Shown: in pieces, positions 2,486-23,792 of the stretch
Layout of the letters: every line of letters starts with the position of its first letter
Numbering within the stretch: the first letter of the stretch is position 1
From: Roseibacillus ishigakijimensis
Lineage (GTDB): Bacteria > Verrucomicrobiota > Verrucomicrobiia > Verrucomicrobiales > Akkermansiaceae
Assembly: GCF_016595415.1 (NCBI RefSeq)
Contig: NZ_JAENIO010000042.1
Location: 1 to 36,555 of the forward strand
Direction: 5' to 3'
Length of the DNA: 36,555 nucleotides
The notes under the pieces: model-generated
The model's input: the letters and a program-made list of their open reading frames with translations, nothing else
Databases searched by the model: none
What the model was told of the DNA's origin: nothing
Translations under genes and position numbers: made by a program

Positions 2486-5400
2486 TTAGAAGTCGCCTTT
2501 TTGTTCGCTGCTATAGCCATCGACGCCGTCCCATCCGGTGGTGGGGTCGGGGCTGCCTTGGTAGTAGCCGCTGCCGCCGAGGCTGAGGGGATCCAGAGCG
2601 GGGGTGATCTCGAACCAGAAGTCCGCGAAGTTGGAGTCGCTGGCGGCTCCGGCTTCGGTCCCTTCGGCCCGACTGTGGTCCTCGACCATGACGACGGTGG
2701 TGTTGTTGTCGGTGAAGGTGAGGAATTGGTCGAGGGCTCCCGGGTTGGCCGCATTCACGGAGAAGAGCGGCTGGCGCTTGGTGTTCTCGCCCTGGCCACG
2801 GGGGGTGTAGCGGTGGGGATTGGTCACGAAGCGGTCGAAGCGGTTGTGAGGCAGCATGGCCAACATCACGGTCCGTCCAGCGAGTCCCAGGGCTTGGGGG
2901 TCGAAGGTGACCTGGTCGCCGGCTTCACTGATTTGGTTGTCGAGCACGGTCACCGCGTTCTCTCCCGCAATGGCGCGGAATTCTAACAAGTTGGGGGTGA
3001 CGGTGGCCACTTTCTCGTAGTCCACGAGGGCGAGGCTGAAGTCGAGGCTGCTGGCATCGCCCCGCAGGTCGATGGTCACCGGGCCGGAGGCGGGCAGCTC
3101 GAACAAGTCGGCTGAAATCTCGTAGCTCGGGTCGTTCCAGCCCAGGTTGGTGAGCACGGTCTCGACGTCTGCCGAGGTGGGGGAGATTCCACCGAACTGC
3201 AGGGTTGCCGGGGCGGCGGGCACGATGTCAATGAGGAGGATGACGTCGTTGAAGTCATTGTCCCGACCTTGGAAGACCCGGTCCTCGAAGGCGACGATGA
3301 GCGGGTCGCCGGGGATGTCGAGGAGGGAGGCGGCCAGCTCCAGGGAGCCGGGATTGAGGTCGGCATCCTGGTAGATGCGCTGGGTGCCTCCCGCTCCGCC
3401 ATCGGAGACGAGGCCAAGGCGCAGCTCGGTGCCGGCGGGCAGAATGCCCAGGCTGGCGGTGGAGCCGGGGACCAGGGGTGCGGTGGGGCCGGTGCCGAAC
3501 TTCTCCCAGATGGTGCTCCAAGTCGCGACGTGGTCGGCGGCATCATACCAGGCAACGGAGTTGATTTGCTTGGCGCCGTCGTAGATGACGGTGACGAATA
3601 CCTCGGAGTCCTCTTCCACGTAGAAGCGGTCTTCATCGAAGCCACGCTTGTGATCCTCTAGGGGAAGGCCGTCGGTGTTGCAGTTGAGCTCCAGCTTCAC
3701 CGCATTCCAGATGTCGCGGGCGTAGGAGTAGAAGAGCGGGTCGATGCCGTAGTTGCGGATTTGGCCCTCGGTCAGTTCAAACTCGATGATGTTGTCGTCG
3801 AGGTTGCACAGCGGGCAGTCGTCGATGGGGGTGTCGATGCCGTCGCCGTCGTCATCGATGTCGATGAAGTTGGGGGAGCCGTCGCCATCGGAGTCGAGGA
3901 TGATGCCGTTGTCGAGGATTTCGTCGGCATCCAGGACGCCGTCGTTGTCGGAATCGAGGTCGAGGTAGTTGGGGGTGCCGTCGTCATCGTAGTCCCCGGT
4001 GCCTTCGATGTCATTGGGGATGCCATCGCCGTCGCTGTCGAGGTCCTCGAGGTAGTCGGGGGTGCCGTTGCTATCGCTATCGAGGTCGATGACCGCTTGG
4101 GGCAGCGCGTAATGGTGTAGCGCCACCGAGTTGCGGACGAGCCAGTTGTCGGCCAGGAGAAAGCCTTTCATGCTCTGCGATTGAGTCACGGTGGCATTCG
4201 GCGCGAGGAGGGAACCCACGAACTGCCGCTGATTGATGTTCACGACTTGAGCGTCGGAAAAGTTCCAGACGATCTTGGAAGGATCGTAGTTCACCGACCA
4301 ACCCCAGTTCGTCAAGTTTCCGGTCACGTTGATGACCACCGATCCTTGGCCATTGAGAAAATCGAGGGTCTTGTAACCGGTGATTTTCGAGGCATCGATA
4401 TGGAACACGTTCAGTCCGTCGTTGATGGAGAGCTTGATGTTGTTCGGGTCCGTGATGAGTCCGGCCATGTCTACTCCCTCCTGGCTAGCCAAGACGGCCG
4501 ACATGGCGACGTAGCCAGCCCAATTCGGCTCCTTGTCCATCGTGCCCAAGTCACCCGTGTATTTGCCCAGCGCTCCCCGGATGTCGCCGAAGACGCCATC
4601 GGTGGAACTGTGATTGTGGCCCGGACCATCGTAGCGCAAATAGTCGTTGATTTTGTTATCTCCTCCGACGAAGAGAGGGACGATCTGATTGCCCTGACCC
4701 GCAATGGTGTAGTAGGAGCCAGTGACGTCTCCTTTAACCCAAATTCCGTTGTCGGCCCGACCTCCTTGGAAGTCCGCATTGCTGAGGATCACGGCGTTGC
4801 CGTAACCATCGGCGAAGGCATCCCGGGGAGTCTCGACCACGGCGTTGCCGCCGCCTTGCTGGGAGCTGTTTCCGCCCGCTTGGGAGGAATCCTCTTCCTG
4901 GGAGGTGGCGGGGTCGCCATCGTAGTCGAGGGCGTTGGGGATGCCGTCCTCGTCACGGTCGGCGTATCCTTCCACGATATCCAGGAGGCCGTCGTTGTCG
5001 CTATCGACATCGCGGTAGTTGGCGAGTCCGTCGCCGTCGCTATCGTCTGCTCCCTCCAGAGAGTCGGGGAGACCATCGTTGTCAGAGTCCTCGTCCAAGG
5101 AGTCGACCACGCCGTCGCCATCGGTGTCGGGCTCGGCTCCCACATAGGTGCCGGCCGGCGCGAGGTAGCATTCTTCGCCGTTCACTCCGCTCCAGAACTC
5201 ACCCCGGATGAGGATGTAGTCGAGGTCGGCGAGCACCTGGCGGAGCTTTCTTTCCGTGGTCTCGAAGGTGGCGGGGTCCAGGGTGATGGCGTATTGGCAG
5301 AATTCACCAAAGGCAGTGCTGCCCAGGTTGTTCTGCATCACGCCGTGGCGCAGGTCCACATTGACCTCGATGCCGGACTTGGAGACGAAGGCCACGTCAC

Positions 5401-22477: not shown

Positions 22478-23476
22478 ATGAAATTTTGTCTCTTTCCTCT
22501 CCTTTTCCTCGTCCAGTGGCTCGGTGCGACCGAGGCCACCCTCGGGCCCGAGCGCGATGCGGCCGTTCGTCTGCAGATTTACCTCGACGAGAATCTCTTC
22601 GGGCCCGGTTTCATTGATGGTAAACCGGGAACTTTTACCCAGCGGGCGGTGGCTTCCTACAACCGGGCCAAGGGGCGGGAAGAGGACGATCAGTTGGTGC
22701 AAATGGAGGCGGATGAACACGTCGACAGCACCTATGTGACCGCCATTGTGCCGCCATCTGCCAAGCGATTTGTCAATGGCAGCCTATCCTATAAGCGCGA
22801 GGAACAGGCCCGGGCCAAAGCGCTCTCCTACCGGAGTTATTTCGAATATATGGCTGAGCGCTATCATACTTCGGAGTCTGTATTATATGAATTAAATGGT
22901 AAGAAGAAGACTTGGGGTGTTTCTCCGGGTCGCAGTCTCATCGTTCCCAATGTGGAGCCTTTCCGCATCGAAGAGATTCAAGCCGGGCGCATGCACACGG
23001 GCGAAGATTCCGATCTCGCTCAGCGCAAGGTGATCATCGACATCGCGGAGCGACAGGTGCAGTTTTACGAGGCTCCCCAGCAGCTTCTTGTGAGCAACAA
23101 TGAAGGGGCCGCCGAGGAGGAAGTGCCCTGGCGCCTCATTGCCAGCTTCCCCACCACTCCCGGGCAGGATCGCTACATTCACCGGGGCACTTGGCGCCTC
23201 AAGAACACCATTGAGTGGCCCGTCTGGCGCTACGACAAGCAGATGCTGGAAAAGGGGAAACGCAGCGACGAGGCTCTCAACATTCCCGGAGGCCCCAATA
23301 ATCCGGTGGGCGTGCTGTGGGCTGGCCTGAGCAAGAGTGGCATCGGCATTCATGGCACCGACAGCCCCCGCACCATCGGGCGGGCCCGTAGTTCGGGTTG
23401 TTACCGCTTGGCCAACTGGGACGCCATTCGCATCCCTCAACTCGTCCGCCCGGGCGCGACCGTCATCGTGCGATAA
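22478..23476 (+). CDS. L,D-transpeptidase (YkuD domain)
   Basis: 332 residues with signal peptide (MKFCLFPLLFLVQWLGATEA). The N-terminal half has a peptidoglycan-binding-like helix set (RLQIYLDENLFGPGFIDG, GTFTQRAVASYNRAKG) and a LysM-like stretch (YMAERYHTSESVLYELNG). The C-terminal YkuD domain carries GIHGTDSPRTIGRARSSGCYRLANWD, with catalytic Cys308 and the upstream His. Predicted periplasmic enzyme forming 3-3 cross-links or anchoring proteins to peptidoglycan. It converges on the selenoprotein gene with 33 bp between stops. Confidence 0.9.
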   Translation: MKFCLFPLLFLVQWLGATEATLGPERDAAVRLQIYLDENLFGPGFIDGKPGTFTQRAVASYNRAKGREEDDQLVQMEADEHVDSTYVTAIVPPSAKRFVNGSLSYKREEQARAKALSYRSYFEYMAERYHTSESVLYELNGKKKTWGVSPGRSLIVPNVEPFRIEEIQAGRMHTGEDSDLAQRKVIIDIAERQVQFYEAPQQLLVSNNEGAAEEEVPWRLIASFPTTPGQDRYIHRGTWRLKNTIEWPVWRYDKQMLEKGKRSDEALNIPGGPNNPVGVLWAGLSKSGIGIHGTDSPRTIGRARSSGCYRLANWDAIRIPQLVRPGATVIVR

Positions 23477-23509: not shown

Positions 23510-23725
23510 CTAGGAGGAAAAGAGAGCAGCCGCCTCTCCCGAGTTGGGAAAATGGCCCGAGCGCTGTTTTTTCCAAAGAAGGTTGCCGTCCTGGCGAATC
23601 TCGAAAATACCGCCACCCCCGGCGACGAGAGTGATTTCCTCGTCGGTTGCGGTCTTGATTTCAGCCGACACCCGGTCGGCATGGGGCTTGTAGTTTCACT
23701 GCGCGCAGTATTCGATCTCAATCAT
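23510..23725 (-). CDS. Rdx/SelW-like selenoprotein with in-frame TGA (Sec10)
   Basis: ATG 23725 to TAG 23510 encodes 71 residues if TGA at 23698-23696 is read as selenocysteine. It starts MIEIEYCAQU-NYKPHADRV; the Rdx family (SelW/SelT/SelH type) has CxxU or CxxC exactly here, followed by YxPxA. Downstream, ITLVAGGGGIFEIRQDG, LLWKKQRSGHFPNSGE matches the family pattern (GxGGxFEV, W-x-K-x-x-GxFP). A GGGGG ribosome-binding-like stretch precedes the ATG. A SECIS-like hairpin follows the TGA. The family has a thioredoxin-like fold and presumed redox function; substrates are unknown. Coding pattern and homology continue past the TGA, which argues against a pseudogene. The Sec insertion machinery is not in this window. 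Confidence 0.85.
23664..23680 (-). promoter_or_regulatory. Bacterial SECIS-like hairpin
   Basis: On the minus strand GCCGAC-CGGGT-GTCGGC forms a perfect 6-bp stem with a 5-nt, G-containing loop. The stem begins 15 nt after the TGA, so the loop lies about 22 nt downstream, within the range of bacterial SECIS elements recognised by SelB. The hairpin is inside the coding region, as in other bacteria. Confidence 0.65.
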
Positions 23726-23792
23726 AACACCCCCAAGATGCGCTGAAATCACCCGCTGGCCAATGAAAAGTTTCGACAAAGGCCGTTGCTTT

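Follow-up and report, generated by a model that had tools for sequence, protein, structure and literature searches.

The window, a stretch of 36,555 nucleotides from contig NZ_JAENIO010000042.1 of Roseibacillus ishigakijimensis, carries a short minus-strand gene of the SelW-like (Rdx) type with an in-frame TGA at its tenth codon. The features of the locus are as follows.

22478..23476, plus strand: L,D-transpeptidase (YkuD) gene, convergent with the selW-like gene (Pfam YkuD, 1e-14)
23510..23725, minus strand: predicted selW-like (Rdx) selenoprotein gene of 71 codons followed by a TAG stop (translation, Pfam Rdx, TIGR02174)
23664..23680, minus strand: predicted bacterial SECIS, 6-bp stem GCCGAC/GTCGGC with loop CGGGT, G at loop position 2
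23696..23698, minus strand: codon 10, TGA, predicted selenocysteine codon, next nucleotide A (translation and relatives)
23705..23707, minus strand: codon 7, TGC, first redox residue, the Cys of CxxU (translation and alignment)
23730..23734, minus strand: GGGGG run 5' of the ATG, possibly a weak ribosome-binding site, judging by its sequence

The product reads MIEIEYCAQ-U-NYKPHADRVSAEIKTATDEEITLVAGGGGIFEIRQDGNLLWKKQRSGHFPNSGEAAALFSS, from the initiating methionine at 23725 to the TAG at 23512-23510, and the TGA of codon 10, which falls at the second redox position of CAQU, is the sole in-frame stop before that TAG. The first-pass annotation had described just such a 71-codon frame, broken only by the TGA, without naming a strand; the frame proves to be as described, and the strand is minus. 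Taken alone it is no better than chance: in this 60% GC window 126 of 1063 ATG-started 71-codon stretches have neither TAA nor TAG and exactly one TGA, nested stretches each being counted separately. No promoter-like site was found near the gene. The YkuD gene lies outside the mechanism discussed below; it adjoins the selW-like gene, which is followed by an HflX-type GTPase gene, in the window as well as in Roseibacillus persicicus KCTC 12988 (L023) and at L030, also a Roseibacillus locus.

What lifts the gene above chance, unlike the frame or the fold alone, is homology together with conservation of the TGA codon in relatives. The product matches Pfam Rdx (PF10262; E 4.6e-17, 62.4 bits against a curated cut-off of 22.6), scores over the cut-off of TIGR02174 and matches solved Rdx proteins by sequence (best E 1.8e-10, to 2fa8), in keeping with the earlier claim of Rdx homology on either side of the TGA. 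The best-scoring NCBI model is NF041051 (SelTWH_Campy; E 3.6e-22, residues 2-68 of 71), at 78.4 bits and thus below its curated cut-off of 88, so the product is not filed under that equivalog; the relatives L034, L049 and L055 exceed the cut-off. An AlphaFold2 model built from 17 sequences (pLDDT 92.2) has a strand at residues 2-7 and a helix at 13-27, with the CxxU/CxxC motif, here C7-A-Q-U10, closing strand 1. A Foldseek search with this predicted model points to the thioredoxin-like Rdx fold, rows 1-21 all being bacterial Rdx chains and mouse SelW appearing in row 22. The Cys-type Rdx structures (2fa8, 3dex, 2ojl, 2p0g, 2oka, 2obk) share the fold of the predicted model (TM 0.81-0.84 by query length), but are about 10-35 residues longer than the window protein and have CxxC rather than CxxU. 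Mouse SelW (2npb) is likewise an Rdx-fold protein (predicted model, TM 0.63 by query length) with Sec in its redox loop.

The hairpin consists of the arms GCCGAC (23680-23675) and GTCGGC (23669-23664), its stem starting 15 nt after the TGA, where the first-pass annotation had put it, and its loop 21 nt after. According to the accessible part of one review (PMC13188914), the bacterial SECIS (bSECIS) model has a stem of 4-16 bp closed by a loop of 3-9 nt whose first two positions include a G, the loop lying 16-37 nt from the UGA, and an MFE <= -7.5. The window hairpin falls within these rules, with a 5-nt loop, 6 bp, G at position 2, a 21-nt spacing and -10.7 kcal/mol for the hairpin fragment. 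As a lone sequence its fold is not significant: at 41 nt z is -1.01 and 33 of 200 shuffles are as good, z rises to 0.11 at 59 nt and 1.02 at 86 nt, and the minimum-energy fold of the 59-nt fragment is another structure, slightly preferred over the hairpin. The fold check proposed in the first-pass annotation thus gave a divided answer, in which the single-sequence fold failed to stand out but the bSECIS rules fitted and the stem was kept across relatives.

The comparative evidence also bears on the best-surviving alternative, that a different signal recodes the UGA and the hairpin arises only as a by-product of protein-level conservation (ADRVSAE). As this alternative would have it, two of the six pairs are invariant in a set of 16 sequences, and Rfam finds no SECIS family over the gene region; its sole hit there is to an unrelated frameshift element and is at chance level (E 4.7). 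Yet standard pairs make up 97.9% of this stem in the same 16 sequences, and three pairs have changed on both sides; of 500 shuffles, 499 or all 500 score below it, depending on the measure, slid versions do not exceed 54%, and RNAalifold recovers the same stem unaided. Across 43 distinct sequences the share of stem cells that pair is 97.7%, more than in any of 2000 synonymous resamplings (mean 80.7%, maximum 88.0%); fold energies average -9.5 kcal/mol, against -6.7 kcal/mol under resampling. This set excludes sequences whose first 60 nt duplicate those of another member, the UGA-less L038 and L039 and the Cys copies L043-L045; L080 is also absent from it. All six pairs are present in 37 of the 43 and five in the other 6, loop position 2 is G in every one, and several of the hairpins are weaker than -7.5 kcal/mol. 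The stem is kept through arm changes to GCCGAG/CTCGGC, GCGGAT/ATCTGC and GCAGCT/AGCTGC. Set against the resampling and these paired changes, the by-product explanation is improbable.

Nineteen relatives of the gene came from a scan of genome contigs. At the position of codon 10, 15 of them have TGA, two have Cys (L036, L037) and two are relics (L038, L039); the TGA persists at the identical codon in relatives down to about 44-47% identity. The codon 7 position is Cys in all 19 alignment rows when TGA is read as C, the UxxU forms described below having TGA itself there. The alignment with Rdx proteins that the first-pass annotation had suggested therefore gives the anticipated outcome, Sec or Cys at residue 10. 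One further relative, L080, has the redox site CEMU. A search of plasmids brought up 27 records, all below 60% identity among the matches listed (10 of 27).

Sampling of the window's bacterial family (137 genomes) found an Rdx match in 43, and every one of these carries a copy whose redox site has TGA, 40 of them CxxU and three UxxU; G031, G044 and G068 have in addition an uninterrupted Cys copy of a longer type. In a sample of 387 genomes across the phylum, 48 have one Rdx match each, of which 40 are uninterrupted and eight carry one TGA, three of these eight belonging to the window's own genus. From these counts, the Cys type is the more frequent one across the phylum, whereas the window's family is dominated by the Sec type.

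The source genome (95.16% complete, 0.01 contamination) encodes all the components that the first-pass annotation had proposed to look for: selA (446.5 bits), selB (328.2 bits), selD (365.6 bits) and a tRNA-Sec with anticodon UCA (66.4). That annotation had held that a complete genome devoid of selA, selB and the tRNA-Sec gene would make the locus a pseudogene. The selA contig (C150) holds another selB-like match, rejected as a second SelB because it is an EF-Tu-type protein of 394 aa. The selD gene itself has one in-frame TGA (SSCAG-U-ASKL, L010:1531-1533), so its product is probably a selenoprotein too; downstream of this TGA lies a hairpin, and the TGA stands at what we take to be the known Cys/Sec site of SelD.

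Presence of the machinery tracks that of the TGA-bearing gene. Among the 137 family genomes selA is matched in 61, comprising 42 of the 43 with TGA-Rdx and 19 of the 94 others (Fisher p 3e-19, not corrected for relatedness). No selA match was found in G113, a family genome with TGA-Rdx, and selA of G099 is in two pieces, each under the cut-off. The 19 family genomes with a selA match and no Rdx match (G028, G033, G035 and 16 others) form a separate observation; in these, other proteins presumably contain the Sec.

In the genomes of the 19 relatives, those of the TGA class have selA in 14 of 15, selB in 14 of 15, tRNA-Sec in 12 of 15 and all three in 12 of 15, and those without TGA have the three together in 0 of 4. 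Eleven of the tRNA-Sec genes were found by both ARAGORN and Rfam; that of G015, with a CUUCAAA anticodon loop, was found by Rfam (60.2 bits) and missed by ARAGORN. The TGA relatives G004 and G007 have selA and selB and lack a detected tRNA-Sec only. Run on the sub-threshold best hits, ARAGORN called tRNA-Ser in G004, G007, G016, G018 and G019 and tRNA-Leu in G017. The Cys-type genome G016 yielded selA and selB and no tRNA-Sec; none of the three was found in G017 (Cys type) or in G018 and G019 (relics). The myxococcal draft genome G013, which has a TGA-form selW-like gene (L033), also gave no selA, selB or tRNA-Sec, its Rfam tRNA-Sec match being rejected as tRNA-Ser(UGA) by ARAGORN; the genome may be incomplete, the contig may be misbinned, or the absence may be real.

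The locus would be a pseudogene if it had once encoded a Cys-type Rdx protein and the TGA were a plain nonsense mutation in it. Decay of this kind does happen. The relics L038 (about 4418-4528) and L039 (about 5001-5111) lack 57 bp relative to the intact L083, a deletion that removed both redox site and hairpin; decay is seen in the 3' part of each as well. The first-pass annotation had held that relatives disrupted elsewhere in the frame would mark the gene as a pseudogene; such relatives do exist, but selA, selB and tRNA-Sec were not found in their genomes, which fits decay after Sec decoding was lost. The occurrence of the Sec form of the short gene in every Rdx-bearing family genome, together with relics where the machinery was not found, ties survival of the gene to Sec decoding. 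With the TGA at the identical codon throughout that family and in most relatives, the protein conserved past it and the Sec machinery in the gene's own genome, the nonsense-mutation explanation is rejected as very unlikely. Decoding of the TGA as Cys or Trp, through a changed code or suppression, would suit its standing where other Rdx proteins have Cys, but with many genes at the examined loci ending in TGA or broken by it on read-through, and with tRNA-Sec(UCA), SelA, SelB and the SECIS-like hairpin all present, it is scarcely credible and is likewise rejected.

The sequence evidence leads to the conclusion that the locus is almost certainly a genuine SelW-like (Rdx) selenoprotein gene of a Roseibacillus-type verrucomicrobium, with UGA 10 read as selenocysteine. 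SelD would supply selenophosphate and SelA would make the Sec-tRNA(UCA), which SelB would bring to the UGA at codon 10, the stem-loop 15 nt downstream of it guiding the recoding. The product would be a small thioredoxin-like protein with a Cys7/Sec10 CxxU pair ending its first strand. Given the gene, the position of its TGA, the homology, the hairpin, the machinery genes and the predicted fold, selenocysteine insertion at codon 10 is itself the most likely outcome. By analogy with the motif and the family, we infer a thiol-disulfide or glutathione-linked redox role.

SelW-like proteins are already known from several bacteria (PMC1794560), and the accessible part of the GOS paper treats them as an abundant prokaryotic selenoprotein family, with 427 sequences in its table (PMC2398784). 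In the portions available, the papers on the GOS and Sargasso data give the family a CxxU motif and an unclear function, and mention that SelW binds glutathione (PMC2398784, PMC1088965). The window gene shares with the prokaryotic SelW-like family (PF10262) its length, the Rdx domain, the single-Sec CxxU and a bSECIS-like hairpin just past the UGA, as far as these are covered in the available text (PMC2398784, PMC1088965, PMC13188914), and differs from it in taxon and sequence only. With the family established in prokaryotes, the gene adds to a known family and is not a new kind. A full-text literature search found no account of SelW-like proteins in Verrucomicrobia, nor of selenocysteine in Roseibacillus. 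The first-pass annotation had presented the use of selenocysteine by this lineage as a consequence of note; the machinery is indeed encoded, but the implied surprise is smaller, SelW-like being so abundant a prokaryotic selenoprotein family. The locus matters as sequence-level evidence that UGA encodes selenocysteine in this verrucomicrobial lineage, which places the residue in a small redox protein. Standard gene calling would cut the gene to nine residues or skip it altogether, and the accessible part of PMC4607533 reports SelW genes missed by annotation in Epsilonproteobacteria.

In the related genus g10, the genomes G041, G105 and G121 each have a SelW-like gene holding a pair of in-frame TGAs, three codons apart. 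Of the 12 genomes of this genus, six have an Rdx match, and three of the six have the UxxU form (L055:173-397, L047 on the minus strand and L049:695-919); selA is present in all three genomes. A single hairpin follows the TGAs, its loop lying, by count, 21 nt from one UGA and 30 nt from the other, with 6/6 pairs in L055 and 5/6 in L047 and L049; in a longer L055 stretch the lowest-energy fold differs from the hairpin. There is a good likelihood that these are UxxU sites (probably diselenide) in which one bSECIS-like hairpin recodes two near-adjacent UGAs, the CxxU of the window gene looking ancestral within the family.

In their available portions, two reviews list prokaryotic SELENOW-like proteins only as CxxU (PMC9312934, PMC13188914), and a literature search on UxxU and bacteria found no bacterial UxxU SelW described in the accessible parts of the papers. 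The available part of PMC7539508 reports a UxxU form of SELENOW in amphioxus and Ostreococcus; these proteins and mammalian SelW differ in having a eukaryotic SECIS in the 3' UTR, according to a general statement in the accessible text of PMC1088965. The g10 variants offer a natural case for whether one bacterial SECIS serves two UGAs. A 45-protein tree built on 72 columns, in which few forks are resolved, does not place the three UxxU rows in a single clade; they may still have had one origin.
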